Shown: positions 232-8,696 of the stretch, one piece after another
How positions within the stretch are numbered: position 1 is the first letter of the stretch
How the letters are laid out: each line of letters begins with the position of its first letter
Assembly: GCA_021129445.1 (NCBI GenBank)
Contig: JAJOLG010000015.1
Coordinates: forward strand, 1 to 8,696
DNA length: 8,696 bases
Source of the DNA: Candidatus Altimarinota bacterium
Lineage (GTDB): Bacteria; Patescibacteriota; Gracilibacteria; GCA-2401425; JAJOLG01
Direction: 5' to 3'
Made by a program: the position numbers and the translations under genes
The notes under the pieces: model-generated
The model's database searches: none
What the model saw: only the letters and a program-made list of their open reading frames with translations
What the model was told of the DNA's origin: nothing

Positions 232-1500
232 TTATGCTTCAATTACTGTAACTCAATCTTTTTTTTCATGTTTTTTTACAATTACAGCATCAGAAATATT
301 TTTATTTTTTTTATTCTTTTTTCAAGGTTTTTTTGGATTATCATCATTATCACTTTTGTAATTTACATAAAGCTGTTGAACTGCTGAAAAAAGTGTAGAA
401 ACAAACCAGTAAATTCATAATCAAGCAGGCATTGTGTAAGAAAAAACGGTTATCATTAAAGGCATTACATATTTCATAGTTTTTCACATAATTTTCATCT
501 GCTCTTCCATTATTCCTCATAATCACACCGGCTGAGTTTTTTGTCAAGCAAAAGTTAAATGCATTTGCCAATATTGAGTTAATCAAATTATTATTGCCAA
601 ATACCAAACATACGAATCCTTTAAATCAAACAATCAAAAGAAATGTGAATTTATCATTCAGTAATCAAAATCTTGCAAAAAACCATAAAGTAAATATGCA
701 TTATTTGCTGTCAATCAATCTTTAATTATGTAAAAAATTGCAATTAAAAATGGAAATTGAATCAAGATCGGTAAACACGATCACATTGGATTTACTCAAT
801 TTTTCTTCCAAATTTGCATTGTTTCTTGTGCAATTTTTGCCTGATCTCATGCATATTTTTTCTTTATTTCATCAAGCTTTGGCTGAATTTTTTGTAATTC
901 TTTTTGACTTTTTAAAGCCTTGTGATTTGGATACAAAAGAGCTAATTTAATCAAAATCGTCAAAACAATAATTGCAAAAGCTAATGAATTTCAAGGTCAA
1001 ACCTCAATTAACCAAATTAAAAAATTGTAAAGCGGTTTATAAAATAATCCATCCCAAATTTTTCAAAAAAATCAAGATTCAACAATTTTTACATTGTTCT
1101 CATAAATTTTTCAATCTTTTGTTTCAAAAATAATTTTATAATCTCAAATCTCTCAAAACATTTTTAAATTTTCATCTCAAAAACTTATAACTTTTCTTTC
1201 TCACGAAGCCAAAGAAATCGCCTTACAATCGTTGATTTGAAAAACATTTGTTAAATCTTTTTTTTCTCACAATTTCAAAAACTCAACTTTTAAAGGAGAA
1301 TTTGGACAATAATCCTTAAATTCAACTTTTTCTTTTGTGTTATTAAAAACATCAAAAGACACCATTTCTCAAAATGTGTATTCCTGTTTTCATTTTATGA
1401 TAATTTGATTTTCTGAAATTTTTTGAGGTTGAGGTAAAATTAAAAGAAAAAAAGTGTAAGATAGTAAAAAAATTAATGAAAATTTTAAAATTTGGTTCAT
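232..1500 (-). CDS. yidC: Membrane protein insertase YidC/Oxa1 family
   Basis: Reading TGA as Gly gives 422 residues ending in TAA. YidC inserts and folds inner-membrane proteins, alone or with SecYEG. Residues about 5-23 form the first membrane segment. A modest extracytoplasmic domain follows, then the conserved Oxa1 core of about five segments from about residue 160. The family signature is clear: a Lys/Gln-rich cytoplasmic hairpin, then Asn237-Pro-Met-Gly-Ser-Cys-Leu-Pro leading into ILIQFPFLIAIFY. Gly240 of this motif is encoded by TGA. The charged residue in the hydrophilic groove, usually Arg, is Lys185 here. The C-terminal tail is Lys/Asn-rich and basic, as expected for ribosome contact. 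The gene follows rnpA after a 133-base gap, the conserved rpmH-rnpA-yidC order. No Shine-Dalgarno sequence is seen before the ATG at 1500. Confidence 0.95.
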
Positions 1501-1633
1501 ATTTTTTTGTTATTTTTAAAATTATTTTTTTATCTTTATTTTTATTTTTTCTTTATTTTCCTACTTTTGTAGGAAAATTAAAAATTATTTTTTAAAATAA
1601 AAATTATTTTTTTTCTAAAAGCAAAAATATTTT
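1501..1633 (-). other. rnpA-yidC intergenic region, low-complexity AT leader
   Basis: This 133-base gap is the longest in the window. It consists almost only of A/T runs and could hold the yidC 5' untranslated region. A 15-base direct repeat (taaaaattatttttt) starts at 1579 and again at 1598, a spacing of 19 bases; this may be simple low complexity. The only G/C-containing structure is the inverted repeat at 1555-1578, listed separately. I see no convincing -35/-10 pair and no coding potential. Confidence 0.5.
1555..1578. other. Perfect 10-bp inverted repeat (stem-loop) upstream of yidC
   Basis: Arms attttcctac (1555-1564) and gtaggaaaat (1569-1578) are perfectly complementary around a 4-base loop. 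Five base pairs of the stem include three G-C pairs, which stands out in this AT-only gap. On the transcribed minus strand the stem is followed by taaagaaaaaa, not a U-run, so a classical intrinsic terminator for rnpA is not supported in that direction. It may be an RNA processing or stability element in the yidC leader, or a protein-binding palindrome. Confidence 0.45.
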
Positions 1634-1993
1634 TTATTTTTTCAAAAAATTTTTATCAAGTTTGAAAAAAAATTTTTCAATAAATTCGTCAATTTCAGAA
1701 GATTGTTTATCCAAAGCAGTTTCAAATGGGAAAAAAACAAATTTTCATAAAAGCTTATCCTCAATTCATTTTTTTTTCAAAACATTCTTTATTGATGCAC
1801 GAAAAATTCTTTTTAATCTGTTTCTTTTTACTGCTAATTTTGAAATTTTTTTTGAAACAATTACAGTAATTTTAAATTTTTCATCACTTTTCAAAAATTT
1901 AACATTAAAAAAAGGCGTCCTAAAACCAGCACCTTTTCTTAATGTTTTCTGAATCTCTTTGTTATTTCTTAATCTGTTTGATTTTTGAAACAT
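1634..1993 (-). CDS. rnpA: Ribonuclease P protein component
   Basis: This is a 119-residue basic protein when TGA is read as Gly. It is the protein subunit of RNase P, which aids the catalytic RNA in removing 5' leaders from pre-tRNAs. The family signature is plain: VSKKISKLAVKRNRLKRIFR at residues 46-65, containing the Arg-Asn-Arg motif (57-59). The N-terminal RLRNNKEIQKTLRKG block is also typical. The C-terminal part after Lys75 needs TGA readthrough as Gly at residue 76 and continues to a TAA at 1634. Without it the protein would stop after 75 residues and lose the last third of the fold. It starts 13 bases after the rpmH stop, the usual tight rpmH-rnpA pairing. No Shine-Dalgarno sequence is visible. 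Confidence 0.95.
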
Positions 1994-2006
1994 TGAAAAA
2001 ATAAAA

Positions 2007-2180
2007 TTAAACTCTTTTTCAGTAAAAAGTCTTTTTAACAGCTAAAACATGTCTTCATTTAGATCTTCTTGATTTAATCACATTTCTTCATCAAACAGTA
2101 GACATTCTTTTTAAAAAACCGTGTTTTCTATGTCTTTTTACTTTATTTCACTTTTTTTTGTAATGATACATTAAACTCAT
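2007..2180 (-). CDS. rpmH: 50S ribosomal protein L34
   Basis: This 57-codon gene is too short for routine gene finding and is split five times by TGA under the standard code. Read with TGA as Gly it gives the L34 core VKRHRKHGFLKRMSTVGG (14-31) followed by RNVIKSRRSKGRHVLAV. The TGA codons fall at residues 11, 30, 31, 42 and 54; 30, 31 and 42 match glycines conserved in L34 throughout bacteria. Only one Gly uses GGT (Gly21). The start at 2180 has a purine-rich gaga just upstream; a second ATG at 2171 (Met4) would give an N-terminus closer to the usual length. A nine-residue tail after LAV is longer than in most L34 proteins. It is the strongest evidence in the window for the code assignment. 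Confidence 0.95.
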
Positions 2181-2268
2181 AATATCTCGTTATTTTTACT
2201 AATTATTTTATATTTTTTAAAAAATGCCAGAAAAAAATATTATTTTTTTATTTTAAGTCAATATTTTT
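2181..2268 (-). promoter_or_regulatory. secF-rpmH gap with possible promoter for rpmH-rnpA
   Basis: This 88-base AT-rich gap holds a TTGACT on the minus strand (2261-2256) that matches a sigma-70 -35 box. No good -10 lies at the ideal 17 bases; taatat comes only 13 bases after it, and tataaaat lies much further downstream, nearer the gene. An AT-only inverted repeat (aaaaaaatatt at 2231-2241 and aatattttttt at 2260-2270) overlaps the secF stop and could act as a weak terminator. Both calls are tentative because chance matches are common at this base composition. Confidence 0.25.
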
Positions 2269-3222
2269 TTAAATTAAATCATCACTAGTTTTAATTTTAC
2301 TTTTTCTTTCAGTTAATTCTCATTTATGAGACATCCCAACTAAAACAGGAGTTGCGATAAAAATTGAAGAATAAGTTCAAATTGCAATTCAAACTATCAA
2401 AGCTAAAACAAATAATTGAATCGATTCTGCTCAGAAAAAATAAAGCGCAATCAAAGGAAATAATGTTGAAACTGAAGTATTTATTGATCTTGACAATGTT
2501 TGATTTACAGCATTATTTGAAATTTCTTCAAAATTTGAAGTCTTTTTTCTTCTCTGTGTATTTTCTCTAATTCTATCAAAAACTACAATTGTATCATGAA
2601 CCGAAAATCACATCACAGTTAAAAGCGCAGTAATAAACAAGGCATCAATTTCAACTCATGTAAAAATTCACATTAAAGAAAAAACTCAAATTGTAATAAT
2701 TATATCATGCGCAAGCGCGATAATCGCTGTAATTCAAAACTTAAATGAAGATAATTCTTCTGGCAAATTTCTGAAGGCATATGCAATATAAAAAATAATT
2801 ATCACAATCGCAACAAGCAAGGCAATCATTGCATTATACTTCATTTTTTCTCAAACAGATGCTCAAATTGTTGTAAATTCTTTTTCCGTAAATTCTCAAA
2901 ATTTTTCTTTCAATGCAAATTTTACATCTGCATGATTTTTTTCGTCCAACTCTTTTGTTTTAATTAAAAAATCATTATTTCAAACACTTTGAATACTTGG
3001 ATAAAGACTTGAAAATTTTTCATCAAATACTGATTTTAAATCAGATTTTGTAACATTTTTATCAAAAATCACCTTCATCATTGTTCATCATGTAAAATCA
3101 AGTCAAAAATTTAAAATATTTCAAGTTGTAATTTTATTATAAGCTAACGATCACAAACTTATAAAAATCAATGTTAATGAAATTGCGAACCAAATTTTTG
3201 ATTTTCAAATAATATTGTACAT
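2269..3222 (-). CDS. secF: Protein translocase subunit SecF
   Basis: This is a 317-residue protein with TGA read as Gly (about 19 TGA codons against a single GGG). SecF works with SecD as a proton-driven motor that helps pull secreted proteins through SecYEG. Membrane segment 1 lies at about residues 8-28, followed by the family motif LDFTGGT at 41-47, with both glycines TGA-encoded. An extracytoplasmic domain of about 90 residues comes next, then a five-helix C-terminal block. The diagnostic segment is VMGFSVHDTIVVFDRIREN, with Asp210 in the conserved His-Asp-Thr position. The length fits the SecF family. An in-frame TAA just upstream of the ATG fixes the start region. The 68-base gap to priA is A/T runs only. 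SecD, normally adjacent or fused, is not in this window. Confidence 0.95.
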
Positions 3223-3290: not shown

Positions 3291-5552
3291 TTAAGAAAAA
3301 TTATTCGGATTTCTATCAATTTTACAATCTAAAAACAAACTTTTATCAATATTTCACATAAATTTTTCAACATTTTTTCAACGAATAATTATGTTCCAAA
3401 TATATTCATTTTTAATTTTTGGAATTACAGCGGGGGCAGAATTTATTCTAATTTTTTCAAAATTTTTATTTTTTTTCGCAAAATCATCAGATTTTTTTTT
3501 CAAATTCTCAAAAATATTTTTCACCCTTTCCTGTAATTTTTGTAAATTTTTATCCCTCAAAGAAATTTTTACAATCTCTCAAAATGGTGGCAATTGCAGG
3601 ATTTTCCTTGTTTCAAGCTCTCTTTCATACAATTTTTGAAAATCATATTTTTGAATAATCTCAAATAAATCATGATCATTTTTAAAAGTCTGAACCAGAA
3701 CTTTTGCATTTTTTTCTCATCTTCAGGCCCTTCAAGCTACTTGAACAATCAACTGAAAAGTCCTCTCTTCTGATTTAAAATCCGGAATATTTAAAGACAT
3801 ATCCGCAGAAATCACTCAAACAAGCGAAATATTTTCAACATCAAGTCATTTTGTAATCATTTGAGTTCAAATCAAAATATCAATTTCTCAATTTTTTAAC
3901 TTAGAAAATAAATTATCGTAATCCTTTTTTGACTTTATATTATCAGCATCTGCTATTTTTATTTTTGCATTTGGAAAAATTTTTTTCACATTTTCAAAAA
4001 GTTTCTGTGTTCAAATTCAAATTTGTCTAAAATCTTTTCATCAGCATTTTTTTCAATCAATAATATTTTTGCAAGCTCAAACATCTTCAATTTTTCAACA
4101 ATAATGACAAACCAATTTTGATTTTTCTCATTTTTTATGAAAAGTCATAGACACTTCGCAATTTTGACATTTCACTGGATTACCGCAATTTAAACAGGAA
4201 ATCGATGAATGCATTCATCTTTGATTTAAAAATAAAATCACCTGCTCATTTTTTTTCAAAGAATTTTTTATTTCAAATTTTAATTTTTCAGAAATATAAG
4301 AAAAATTTTTTGCCCTAAATTCCATTTTCAAATCAACAATTTCAATATTTGGCAAAGGTTTTCAGTTTGCTCTTTTTGGTAATTCAAGTATTTTAAATCA
4401 ATTTTTTTGAAATTCAAAATAATCAGCAACATCGGGGGTTGCAGTTCAAAAAATCAATTTTGAACCAAAAATTTCCGCATAAAATTCAGCAATTTTTTGA
4501 GTGCGATAATTTGGCGAGGAATTGTTTTTAAAAGTCCACTCATGCGCTTCATCAAGGCAAATCAAGCCTAAATTTTGCCACGGCATAAAAATCGCAGATC
4601 TTGAACCGATAATCAATTTTGTTTTTCAAATTTTCACATTATGCCAAATTTCCGCCTTTTTTACAGGAGAAATTTTTGAATGCACAACTCAAATCACATC
4701 TTTTTCAAAAGAATTTTCAAAACTTTTCAAAAATTGAGGTGTCAAGGAAATCTCGGGGAGCAGTAAACAAGCCTGTTTTCAAACTTTCAAAACCTCTCTC
4801 ACAGCATGTTTGTAAATTTCAGTTTTTCAAGAACCTGTAATTCAATGGATAAAAATTTTCTGATTTTTTTGAATTTCTTCAAAATTTTTTTCTTGGTCTG
4901 AATTTAATTTTAGAAAATTTTTATCATTAAAAAAATTTTGTTCCTCTAACTTTTTTTTTAAAAAAATATTTTTTTTCAATTTTTTATTTTCAAGATCAAT
5001 TTTTTTTATCTCTTCCAAGTTTTTTTTCAAAATTTTTTTCTCATTTTTTTCTTCCAAGACCCTAATTTTTTCTAAATTTTCGTCTAAAATTTTTTCAGGA
5101 TTTAAAAAAAATTTTTCCTCTTTTAAAAAATTTTTTACTTCATTTTCAGTTGGGGAAAAAATTTTTTTTGGCAAAAATAAAGAACTTGTCTGCTGTAAAT
5201 TTGAAAAATAAAATTTATTGATTTTAAAAATCAACTCCAAAAATTTTTTAGTCTGGGAAAAATTTTCAAAATTCAATCAAAAATTTTTTGGCAAAATTCA
5301 CAAAATATTTTTAATTTTTTTTTCGTCTAAAACTTTTCAATGTTGATCAAACGGAGTTTCAGAAAAATTTACAAGCAATCCAAATTTTTCCTTTTTTCAA
5401 AAAGGAATTTTTACAATTCTTCATAAAATTTTTTCAAAATTTTTTCAAAAAAACTCTTTTTCCGCATCAGAAAAATTTTCATCAGAAAACTTGTACCAAA
5501 CAGTATTTGGCATATAATAAACATAATCTGATAAAATTATTTCTAAAAACAT
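3291..5552 (-). CDS. priA: Primosomal protein N' / replication restart helicase PriA
   Basis: This is a 753-residue protein with TGA read as Gly, near the usual PriA length. PriA recognises stalled forks and D-loops and starts helicase reloading. Walker A is GITGSGKT at 237-244 (Lys243) and Walker B is LDEAH with Asp334, where DEEH is common in the family. Further motifs are GSRSAIF, GTATP, LNQRG, then IGTQMITKGLDV, QVAGRAGRG and the C-terminal LPPF. Eight zinc-binding cysteines are kept at 453, 456, 462, 465, 482, 485, 494 and 503. The last pair is spaced CX8C rather than the usual CX2C. The N-terminal region before the helicase, about residues 150-220, is an unusually Lys/Glu/Asn-rich predicted coiled coil. 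The gene follows the tsaE-HD gene after 40 bases and has no Shine-Dalgarno sequence. Confidence 0.95.
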
Positions 5553-5592: not shown

Positions 5593-6609
5593 TTATTCAA
5601 ATTTTTCCAACTCTTTTTCAATTTTTAAATTGTATTTCAACATTTTTTCGTAAACCTTTTCACTTTTTTTACTTCAATCTCAATATCTTTTTTTCACATC
5701 TTTAACCCTCTCTTTCACAGAAACCCTTTTATTATGCATAGTTGTCGCATCTGCAAAATAAACAATTTTCTCTTCAATTGTTGAAAATCATTTTGAATTA
5801 AATCAATGAGACGAAATAACTTTTCAAATTTCTTTGTATCACATTTCATAAAACAGCTTTCAACCTGCTTTTTCGTGCGATAATCAGGAAAATTGTTCTT
5901 TCATTTTTTTCCAAAGATTTACAGTTTCAGCAGAAAATTTTAATCAAAAAATATCAAAATAATATCAATCTTTTTCCTTCATTTTATCCACAAAATCAAT
6001 ATATTTCAAAATATCATGCAATCTTGCTGATGTGTAAATCAATCATTTGTCAACAATTTTTCAATTTTTCAAAAATTTTTCTGCAATTTGAACAGCAGTA
6101 TTTGCAACTTGTGCGGTGTGCTCTTGAATTCAAATTGGAGTTTTAAATTTTTCAAAAATTTTTTTAATCTCATTTTCAGAAAAATTTGTTCAAAAAAATT
6201 TTATTTCGACAAATCTTTCATTTTCAGATTTTTTTTGAAAATGCAATTCAATTCCAGATTTTGGCTTAAAATTCAGTTTTTCAGCCCATTCAACAATCAC
6301 AAAATCATCAGATTCAAAATTTTCTTCAAGAGATTCCAAATTTTGATTTTCAAGTCTGTAAATATCATAATGCCAAATTTTTTTGAATTTTTCAGAATTT
6401 TTTAGTTCATAAAAATTCTCCAAAGCATAACTTGGCGATTTAATTTTTTTCTCAACTCAAATATTTTCCAAAAAAAATTTTGTAAAAGTAGTTTTTCAAG
6501 CTCAAACTTCTCAAAAAATCAAAATATTTGAAAATCAAAAAACATTTTTTTCAATTTCCTTCGCAAAATTTTTTGTATCCTCCAAGTTTTTCAAAACTTT
6601 TTTTATCAT
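5593..6609 (-). CDS. tsaE: TsaE tRNA t6A ATPase fused to HD-domain phosphohydrolase
   Basis: This is a 338-residue two-domain protein (TGA as Gly). Residues 1-140 are TsaE, the ATPase that partners TsaB/TsaD in making t6A37 on ANN-reading tRNAs. It shows the P-loop GEVGAGKTT (33-41, Lys39, all three glycines TGA), the SPSYALENFYE segment, HYDIYRL (80-86) and the conserved VEWAE (Glu107-Trp108). Residues about 155-338 form an HD domain with a complete set of candidate metal ligands: His164, His198-Asp199, His245, His268 and Asp287, followed by the HD-typical VSVKERVKDVKKRYG. A TGA-encoded Gly141 lies at the boundary. No ATG, GTG or TTG occurs between that codon and His164, so a separate HD gene is unlikely. 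The HD substrate is unknown; YqeK-like nucleotide hydrolases are one comparison. The start is 7 bases after the upstream stop. Confidence 0.85.
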
Positions 6610-6616
6610 AAAAAAA

Positions 6617-7684
6617 TTATTGAATAATTGTATAACTCAAATCAATTCACTGAGTTCATTGATAAATTTTTCTTGTAATTGTTTGAACCGATCAATAAAC
6701 CTGTGCAGTTGAGGTAATCTCTTGAACAAGAGATGGCAAAGGTTCGGTACATCAAGAAATTTCATAATGAATTGGAAGTCAATTTATATCATCTCAATTT
6801 TCATAAAGATAATTTTGATAAGTTAAAGTTAAAACAGGTTTAAAAGGATTTCAATTTAATGGATCTCATCATCAATCAAGCAAATCAACAATTGATTGAT
6901 CTTTACAATCATCACCTGCATTAGTTAAGCAATGTCAAATTGTATTTGTTGAATCAAATTCAAGTTTTCAATTATGTGAAAAAGTTCAATTGATTTTATA
7001 ACAAAATGGATTTTTATCCTGATCTCAGGAATAACTACATTCTTGAGAAGATTGTAAATAATATCAAGTTCAATCCGCGCTGTCTTCATTTACATCTAAC
7101 CTCCAATTCACAATATTTGTTTTATCGCTATCTCAATCTGTATAAATACTATTTCAATTTACAGAAAAATTCACCTCAGCGGTATCAGTATTACAAATAT
7201 TTACAATTGTTCAACTATTTGAAGATTCTCAAATTCAAGCATTATCCTTATAAAGATAAAATTTTCTAAAATTTTTATATTTTTTTCTATTTTTATCCAA
7301 ATTTAAAATATTATCAATATTTCACTTCCAAACTAAATATCAAGATTCAGTAGTTGAATCCGATAATCATTTCACTCACCATTTATACATCAATCTATTT
7401 CAATTCAATTTCAATAATCAATCATTTACAATTAGTCCATATTGTGTTTTTCAATTTGTTGAATCATTAAATCAAATATCATGAGTATTTATTTCAAATA
7501 AAGCCTGTTCAATTCAAGATTCTGCTCAATAAATTGCCATATTATATCTTTCTGCAATTCAAATATTTTTTTGTGAAGAAACAAGAGATCAAACAAGTAA
7601 TGATGACAATCAAAATAAAATAATTGAATATCAAAATACCATCATTAAAGAGGCCGCTTTTTTTTCTTTTAAAAATTTTAACAT
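6617..7684 (-). CDS. Prepilin-like secreted surface protein
   Basis: This is a 355-residue protein with TGA as Gly. The N-terminus is basic (KEKK at 6-9), followed by Ala-Ala-Ser and a hydrophobic helix at about 12-35. Next comes an amphipathic segment with AESGIEQAL at 54-62. This layout is typical of type IV minor prepilins of the PilX kind and of their relatives in candidate-phyla bacteria. The rest is an extracytoplasmic domain rich in Asp, Asn, Ser and Gly with six cysteines, which could pair as disulfides outside the cell. The C-terminal part contains short beta-like strands. The canonical Glu5 of the mature pilin is not evident, so cleavage by prepilin peptidase is an inference. It starts one base after the stop of a related gene, which argues for one operon. 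The specific function is unknown. Confidence 0.75.
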
Positions 7685-7685
7685 T

Positions 7686-8696
7686 TTAATTTAAAACATT
7701 TATTGTTTTTGATGAATTTCTTGGAATTATTGTTGATTGTAAATTTATTTCAATATTACTCTTTCTTCATCAATCTCTTCAAAAAGAAAAATCTCTTGAT
7801 TTAACTCATAATTTCAAGGTTATAAAACTTGGCTTATTATAAAGTGGTTGATTAAATGATAAATCTGATTTTTTTTCCGGTCATAAATAAAAATCAAATT
7901 GAGTGACAATTAAATTTTCTGGTGTAATATCCTGCCATTTTATATCATTTCAAATAATTCAAGTTAAAGTTTCAGGACACTCAAAATCATCAACACATTT
8001 CCACGAATTTGCAATTCAATTTGTCGTAAAAGTTTTTGCTTCCATTTCTAAAAATAAAACACATCAAACTCAATTTACACACTCATTTCAATCTCAATAT
8101 TTAAAAGCATACCTTTTATTTCACTGAGAATTTACCAAAATAAGTGGAAATTTTTTAGATTTTACAGAATTTTGATCATAATCCCAAGTCCATAAAATAT
8201 CTTGTGAAAAAGTTCATGAAAAAGCTTTTGGTCATCTTCAATAATATGGATCATCATCATAAATGTTTTGCTGATTTCAAGTTTTCGTTGTATCCTCTCT
8301 AATAAAATCTGTTCTACAATTTAAATGAACAGTTGTATCTGTATTGTTATTCATTTTAGTTTCAGCATTATACTGCCATCAATTTGATTCATCTCATGAT
8401 TCCGTATTTCACGGAAAAATAAATTGATATTTATAATTTTCCAAAATAAACCTTCAAGATCAAGACTCATCAACATTATAATCACTTGAATGATCACTTC
8501 ATGTAGTTGCTCAACTACAATTTAAAACAGAATTAAATCATTGAGTTCAATCAACATTTAAATCAGAATCTGCTCATTTTGGATTTGGTCATTCATCAAT
8601 AAAAGCATCAGCGATTTTTGCAGATCAATCTTCATTTTTCATTCTAGTCGCTTCTCTCCAATACGATTGATAATCAATATCAGAATTTTTAATATA
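7686..8696 (-). CDS. Prepilin-like or pseudopilin surface protein, C-terminal part (start beyond right edge)
   Basis: The visible 336 residues run in one frame from the window edge to a TAA, with many TGA codons read as Gly. No start is visible. The fragment is hydrophilic and rich in Asp, Asn, Ser, Thr and aromatic residues, with six cysteines, which suggests an exported disulfide-bonded domain. Near the C-terminus, ITPENLIVTQFDFYLGPEKK is followed by a strand with KPSFITLKL and by IEINLQSTIIPRN. Together these resemble the final beta strands of pseudopilin-like proteins (an 'LQT-x-x-x-x-R' style ending). With its neighbour one base away, it forms a probable surface or pilus gene pair. The prepilin call depends on this ending and on context, because the N-terminal helix lies outside the window. 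Confidence 0.65.

Follow-up and report, generated by a model that had tools for sequence, protein, structure and literature searches.

In this study, we analyzed a window of 8,696 nt, positions 1 to 8,696 of contig JAJOLG010000015.1 (assembly GCA_021129445.1), to whose full length all positions given here refer. In it, one gene on the minus strand joins the t6A ATPase TsaE to an HD phosphohydrolase domain. The features of the window and of this gene are the following:

235-3222, minus strand: secF, a small basic L34-like ORF (2007-2180), rnpA and yidC, in this order
3291..5552, minus strand: priA, with PriA domains, the next gene downstream of tsaE-HD (40 bases away); outside the proposed mechanism
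5593..6609, minus strand: tsaE-HD fusion gene, 338 aa under table 25 (TGA = Gly), with ATG at 6609 and TAA at 5593
6214..6591, minus strand: TsaE domain, residues 7-132 (PF02367, TIGR00150), with a genome-level match at the same coordinates
6487..6513, minus strand: Walker A motif GEVGAGKTT, residues 33-41; G33, G36, G38, K39 and T40 invariant
6136..6195, minus strand: TsaE-HD junction, residues 139-158, without a stop codon; high-confidence helix at 145-154 (AlphaFold)
5737..6123, minus strand: HD domain core, residues 163-291 (PF01966); modeled alone at pLDDT 96.0 and pTM 0.91, with HD-superfamily structural matches
6118..6120, minus strand: H164, first predicted metal ligand, invariant in all three homologue sets (fused, split, stand-alone)
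6013..6018, minus strand: H198-D199, the HD pair, invariant in the same three sets
5875..5877, minus strand: H245, expected second-metal ligand (fused 30/30, split 20/22, stand-alone 25/25)
5806..5808, minus strand: H268, expected second-metal ligand (fused 30/30, split 21/22, stand-alone 25/25)
5749..5751, minus strand: D287, last predicted metal ligand, invariant
6617-7684 and 7686-8696, minus strand: two adjacent proteins without a Pfam match

Under table 25, the frame runs from ATG to TAA without a stop, with 19 TGA codons translated as glycine. Both domains score above the Pfam cut-offs on this translation, PF02367 over residues 7-132 (E 4.3e-26, 91.8 bits against a cut-off of 26.6) and PF01966 over residues 163-291 (E 8e-9, 36.2 bits against 22), TIGR00150 matches the TsaE half with 78.9 bits (cut-off 60.1), and AlphaFold yields a confident two-domain model of the full-length protein (pLDDT 94.6, pTM 0.92). 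The claim of an earlier note on this DNA, that TsaE continues in frame into a complete HD domain, is thus confirmed by the domain searches and the structure prediction that it had proposed as checks. The modeled TsaE half superimposes on YdiB from B. subtilis (5np9) with a Z of 18.0 and an rmsd of 2.0 over 137 residues (VIA-align), and shares the fold, Walker A, H80, D82, R85 and W108 with known TsaE proteins (YjeE/YdiB), the ATPase of the TsaBDE t6A complex, from which the window protein differs by ∼190 extra residues that make up the HD hydrolase domain. Invariant residues of this half are G33, G36, G38, K39, T40, S58, P59, H80, D82, R85, E107 and W108, with the invariance of Walker A read from two alignments, one of 31 and one of 30 fused proteins. 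A profile search of the host genome matches TsaE at the window locus only and finds one clear TsaD and one clear TsaC; TsaB has a weak candidate (C24:3493-3726, TIGR03725 E 2.4e-4, below the cut-off) and appears from its sequence to be very divergent or reduced. This candidate harbors a GPGRFMSMR motif in a frame of ∼200 aa.

It is extremely improbable that the in-frame join stems from an assembly error, a reading error or a wrong genetic code. The host genome is indeed fragmented (77 contigs), and the frame depends on reading TGA as glycine. However, three of the 19 TGA codons stand for G33, G36 and G38 of the Walker A motif, positions occupied by glycine in all aligned relatives, and because of this coincidence we consider code 25 correct for this gene; moreover, the same join is present in ∼100 other, independently assembled genomes, mostly without in-frame TGA. 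An assembly error at about position 6187, named in the earlier note as a finding that would overturn the fusion, is therefore not credible, and we rejected both an assembly and a code artefact on these two grounds.

The ligands first proposed for the HD half, H164, H198-D199, H245, H268 and D287, are exact in position and invariant in 30 fused proteins. Published work takes two additional histidines, located between HD and D, as the mark of a dinuclear HD site such as that of YqeK, and assigns YfbR and YpgQ, with the motif H...HD...D, to the mononuclear enzymes (PMC8177086). Because the six ligands H...HD...H...H...D match this rule, we infer a dinuclear site for the HD half, which is probably a catalytically competent hydrolase. 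In the window protein, D287 is followed by A288-T289 (5743-5748), where nearly all relatives show K-R, with K288 and R289 present in 29 of the 30 fused proteins and the window protein being the exception; compared to nearly all relatives, it also bears an insertion of ∼8 residues around positions 214-220. One fused TsaE-HD protein (L040, genome G289) has D and Q in place of the two extra histidines and is a possible mononuclear or inactive variant, and two related split genes, L038 and L041, are likewise missing part of the extra-histidine region.

Structural comparison places this half in the HD superfamily. The predicted model matches YqeK structures (2o08, 3ccg, 2ogi and 8wmy, among the best matches), PPX/GppA, GlyRS and others, all tied at a Z of ∼10-11, and such ties in a helical domain therefore indicate the superfamily and nothing finer. 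Foldseek with the HD model alone returned HD enzymes, none at an E below 0.001, and a PDB sequence search with the HD half gave weak matches to 1xx7, 3mzo and 2cqz (E 5e-4 to 2e-3); since no close structure was found, no substrate can be read from the fold search.

Since the HD half misses the cut-offs of YqeK, TIGR00295 and NF045665, we treat it as what its sequence indicates to be a new HD subfamily. YqeK, an HD-domain Ap4A hydrolase, has the same six-ligand motif in the same order, but the present subfamily differs in an xxR/K...DF stretch after HD, in a conserved E..K....ADKR..V..R region, in its linkage to TsaE and in a score far below the family cut-off. The YqeK profile (TIGR00488) has no match listed for the window protein and reaches at best 18 bits in our HD alignment (E 0.00099, member 1) against a cut-off of 70.15, so that membership was rejected; a search of the host genome found no canonical YqeK and did not pick the tsaE-HD locus. 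The closest curated relative is NF045665 (DVU_1551-family NTP transferase; E 5.8e-20), which matches 18 of 18 members of the HD alignment. However, the best-matching stretch is the C-terminal HD part (profile positions 263-355 of 359), the partner of HD there is a nucleotidyltransferase rather than TsaE, and membership was rejected because the score of 71.6 bits falls short of the cut-off (315). The archaeal HD proteins of TIGR00295 share a related HD part (17/18 members match), with membership rejected at 39.4 bits against 172.35. Six of the 18 members also match the C-terminal part of PRK12703 (Trm56-HD; best E 4e-6), another tRNA-modification enzyme with a fused HD domain, in which the partner is a methyltransferase. 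The fold of the superfamily is further shared by the RSH/SAH (p)ppGpp hydrolases and the YfbR/YpgQ nucleotidases. RSH proteins carry the motif HDxxED (HDVVED in the host's own RSH), whereas the window protein reads HDILKYIDF and its relatives HDxxR/K, and we rejected a (p)ppGpp hydrolase of the RSH/SAH type because the ED after the HD motif is absent. The host genome encodes three PF01966 proteins, namely, RNase Y, RSH and TsaE-HD.

To place this gene into a broader perspective, we surveyed 353 genomes of the GTDB class to which the window belongs, using the whole protein and a profile of the HD half as queries. In ∼100 of the 353 genomes, nearly all without in-frame TGA, the whole protein matched across TsaE and HD within one long reading frame, and the HD profile matched in 153. 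Counting the HD-profile rows whose open frame reaches 300 residues or more, a manual tally that takes this length as a proxy for fusion, gives ∼104 fused loci including the window. The architecture is therefore common in the class, standard-code genomes included, contrary to the rarity implied at first, and we rejected the notion that the fusion is unique to table-25 Gracilibacteria, since most fused genomes lack in-frame TGA. In an independent collection of 80 loci, the hosts of TsaE-linked HD are labeled Peregrinibacteria, Peribacteria, Gracilibacteria and Patescibacteria, with TsaE and HD fused in 29 loci and encoded by neighboring genes in 23. In this lineage of very small, uncultured bacteria, TsaE is joined to, or predicted to be translated together with, a putative metal-dependent hydrolase in well over a hundred species. 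The open-access papers searched yielded no description of TsaE joined to an HD domain in the relevant sense (the CASP15 paper concerns TsaB); what is new is the fusion of the known essential ATPase TsaE with the known HD superfamily, each kind of partner having been known already.

In all 23 unfused loci of this collection, HD lies directly 3′ of TsaE on the same strand. In five of them, the likely HD start reaches back 4 bases into the TsaE stop (ATGA), and in five others the overlap is 8 bases; most of the remainder overlap or touch. One gap measures 53 bases and one overlap 59 bases, the latter value hinging on the choice of start. Relatives with two separate genes, which the earlier note had regarded as grounds for refuting the fusion, do occur, yet their adjacent and usually overlapping genes represent an alternative architecture and no refutation. 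Opposite-strand genes flank the fused or unfused unit on both sides in 42 of the 49 loci with both neighbors resolved, which suggests that TsaE and HD form their own transcription unit. In a tree built from concatenated TsaE and HD domains, the fused or split state needs ∼4 changes, with the starred branches forcing at least 3, and single fused rows are nested inside split groups. As the same two neighbors have repeatedly been fused or split, their products probably work together. Many genomes of the class, including G137 from the same order as the window, have TsaE without this HD, and the HD domain is consequently dispensable for t6A. In 22 loci from other CPR classes, the stretch fetched around the HD relative held no TsaE (0/22), and a TsaE neighbor is likewise absent where HD relatives occur in Planctomycetota, Woesearchaeota, Wirthbacteria and a Falkowbacteria bin. 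The TsaE-HD link thus characterizes this class, and t6A as such does not depend on it.

Outside the class, with neighbor names assigned by eye rather than by profile search, the HD relatives lie next to varied genes (dnaK/dnaJ, Thi4-like, ndk in some CPR, mreB, polA and def) that define no single pathway. In seven of seven Woesearchaeota loci (L061, L067, L079, L104, L105, L109 and L111), dnaJ immediately follows the HD relative, which has dnaK upstream in six and grpE in five, in the order grpE-dnaK-HD-dnaJ; by this gene order, the hydrolase appears to lie inside an archaeal heat-shock operon. In seven Planctomycetota loci (L074, L077, L084, L085, L100, L121 and L128), the HD relative comes immediately after a Thi4-like gene (thiazole biosynthesis), whose end it overlaps in most cases. 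The occurrence of stand-alone relatives beside dnaK/dnaJ, Thi4-like and ndk genes argues that the chemistry of the HD domain is not specific to TsaE. DnaK binds Ap4A in E. coli (PMC10148737), and the varied contexts fit a hydrolase of adenosine-phosphate compounds.

Previous work showed that TsaE with ATP docks on TsaBD and that ATP hydrolysis resets TsaD (PMC9654439, PMC11648230), with TsaE and tRNA binding TsaBD in turn and in a mutually exclusive manner (PMC9654439). TsaC forms an AMP intermediate (PMC11648230), and adenylate-forming enzymes yield Ap4A when ATP attacks such an intermediate (PMC10148737). Our preferred reading, to which we give an even chance, is that TsaE-HD is a bifunctional t6A-pathway protein. 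By homology, and following the published mechanism, its TsaE half would bind ATP, dock on TsaBD and reset it after each modified tRNA, while its HD half would hydrolyze a phosphoester or phosphoanhydride at the predicted dinuclear metal site. The two activities, whose association is observed, would serve one process in this class. Its tether to TsaE would put the HD domain in a good position to remove, close to the TsaC/TsaBD site, either such a dinucleotide or an obstructing nucleotide. The functional coupling of TsaE and HD is itself well supported at the sequence level by ∼100 fusions, apparent translational coupling where the genes are unfused, an isolated unit and conserved active sites in both halves. 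The earlier note's proposal that ATP turnover is coupled to phosphohydrolysis is therefore upheld as regards the coupling, through the fusions, overlaps, isolated unit and conserved residues, and only partly as a whole; the hydrolyzed molecule may inhibit t6A synthesis or arise from it. The most likely substrate, which we name tentatively, would be an adenine-nucleotide phosphoanhydride, such as Ap4A-type dinucleotides or spent or inhibitory adenylates, cleaved much as YqeK would do. Against the bifunctional reading and its substrate stand the score of the HD half far below the YqeK cut-off, a fold comparison that fails to separate YqeK from PPX/GppA or GlyRS, the loss of the nearly invariant K-R in the window protein, the HD relatives beside unrelated genes elsewhere and the many class genomes that have TsaE but not this HD. 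The host genome also encodes two Nudix proteins, which could already remove dinucleotides.

Several other roles of the HD domain have to be weighed. It could be a general hydrolase of alarmones or damaged nucleotides without a direct role in t6A, the fusion serving only to secure joint expression at equal levels from a compact genome, but we consider this rather unlikely. Stand-alone homologues in very different contexts, including archaea without TsaE nearby, and the frequency of TsaE without HD in the class speak for it, but a housekeeping neighbor would be expected to shuffle, as it does outside the class, whereas here the association is with TsaE only, in an isolated unit that has persisted in many families of this class through ∼4 changes of fusion state. 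Some CCA-adding enzymes use an HD domain for tRNA repair, and the present domain might similarly act on RNA ends, as a phosphatase or cyclic phosphodiesterase repairing or trimming tRNA on TsaBDE. This would agree with a partner that works on tRNA, with the relationship to the archaeal tRNA methyltransferase PRK12703 and with the lack of a CCA enzyme among the three PF01966 proteins of the host. We nevertheless consider it quite improbable, given that TsaE and tRNA exclude each other on TsaBD (PMC9654439), so that the HD domain would not sit on the bound tRNA, and that the domain is also found in contexts without tRNA enzymes.

Very unlikely is a role mainly in binding tRNA or TsaB/TsaD, with chemistry being incidental, as for the HD-like domain of bacterial glycyl-tRNA synthetase. 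Domains of this kind rank with the top structural matches (Z 11.2), but their Z values are tied with those of many HD enzymes, and the six metal ligands, needless for binding, are invariant in 30 of 30 fused proteins and nearly so elsewhere. Taking the bifunctional reading one step further, t6A synthesis in this class may include an unrecognized second hydrolase step, in which the TsaE-borne HD domain would remove an adenylate or dinucleotide made or bound by TsaC/TsaD and thereby drive or police TsaBD turnover; we regard this as possible, if doubtful.

The modification t6A is universal, and why TsaE burns ATP is still debated. The recurrent joining of TsaE to a phosphohydrolase is a genetic hint at a missing activity, such as the clearing of AMP, ADP, TC-AMP by-products or Ap4A, and points to an unrecognized partner activity of the t6A pathway, for which TsaE-HD offers a ready-made single protein for testing. 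Moreover, the HD subfamily is also met next to dnaK/dnaJ, a Thi4-like gene and ndk, so that identifying its substrate would explain several genomic contexts together.

As for the other genes of the window, the one at 6617-7684 stops 7 bases short of tsaE-HD, and its product combines a hydrophobic N-terminal segment with a pilin-like AESGIE motif. We rejected priA as a general neighbor of TsaE-HD, as it was matched in 2 of the 80 fetched loci and directly beside TsaE-HD in neither. In locus L187 of G025, a TGA-rich genome of the class, a stand-alone HD gene, with no TsaE, immediately precedes a PriA-like ORF; tsaE-HD in the window is likewise directly upstream of priA, and the adjacency in these two loci may be a trace of an older gene order.
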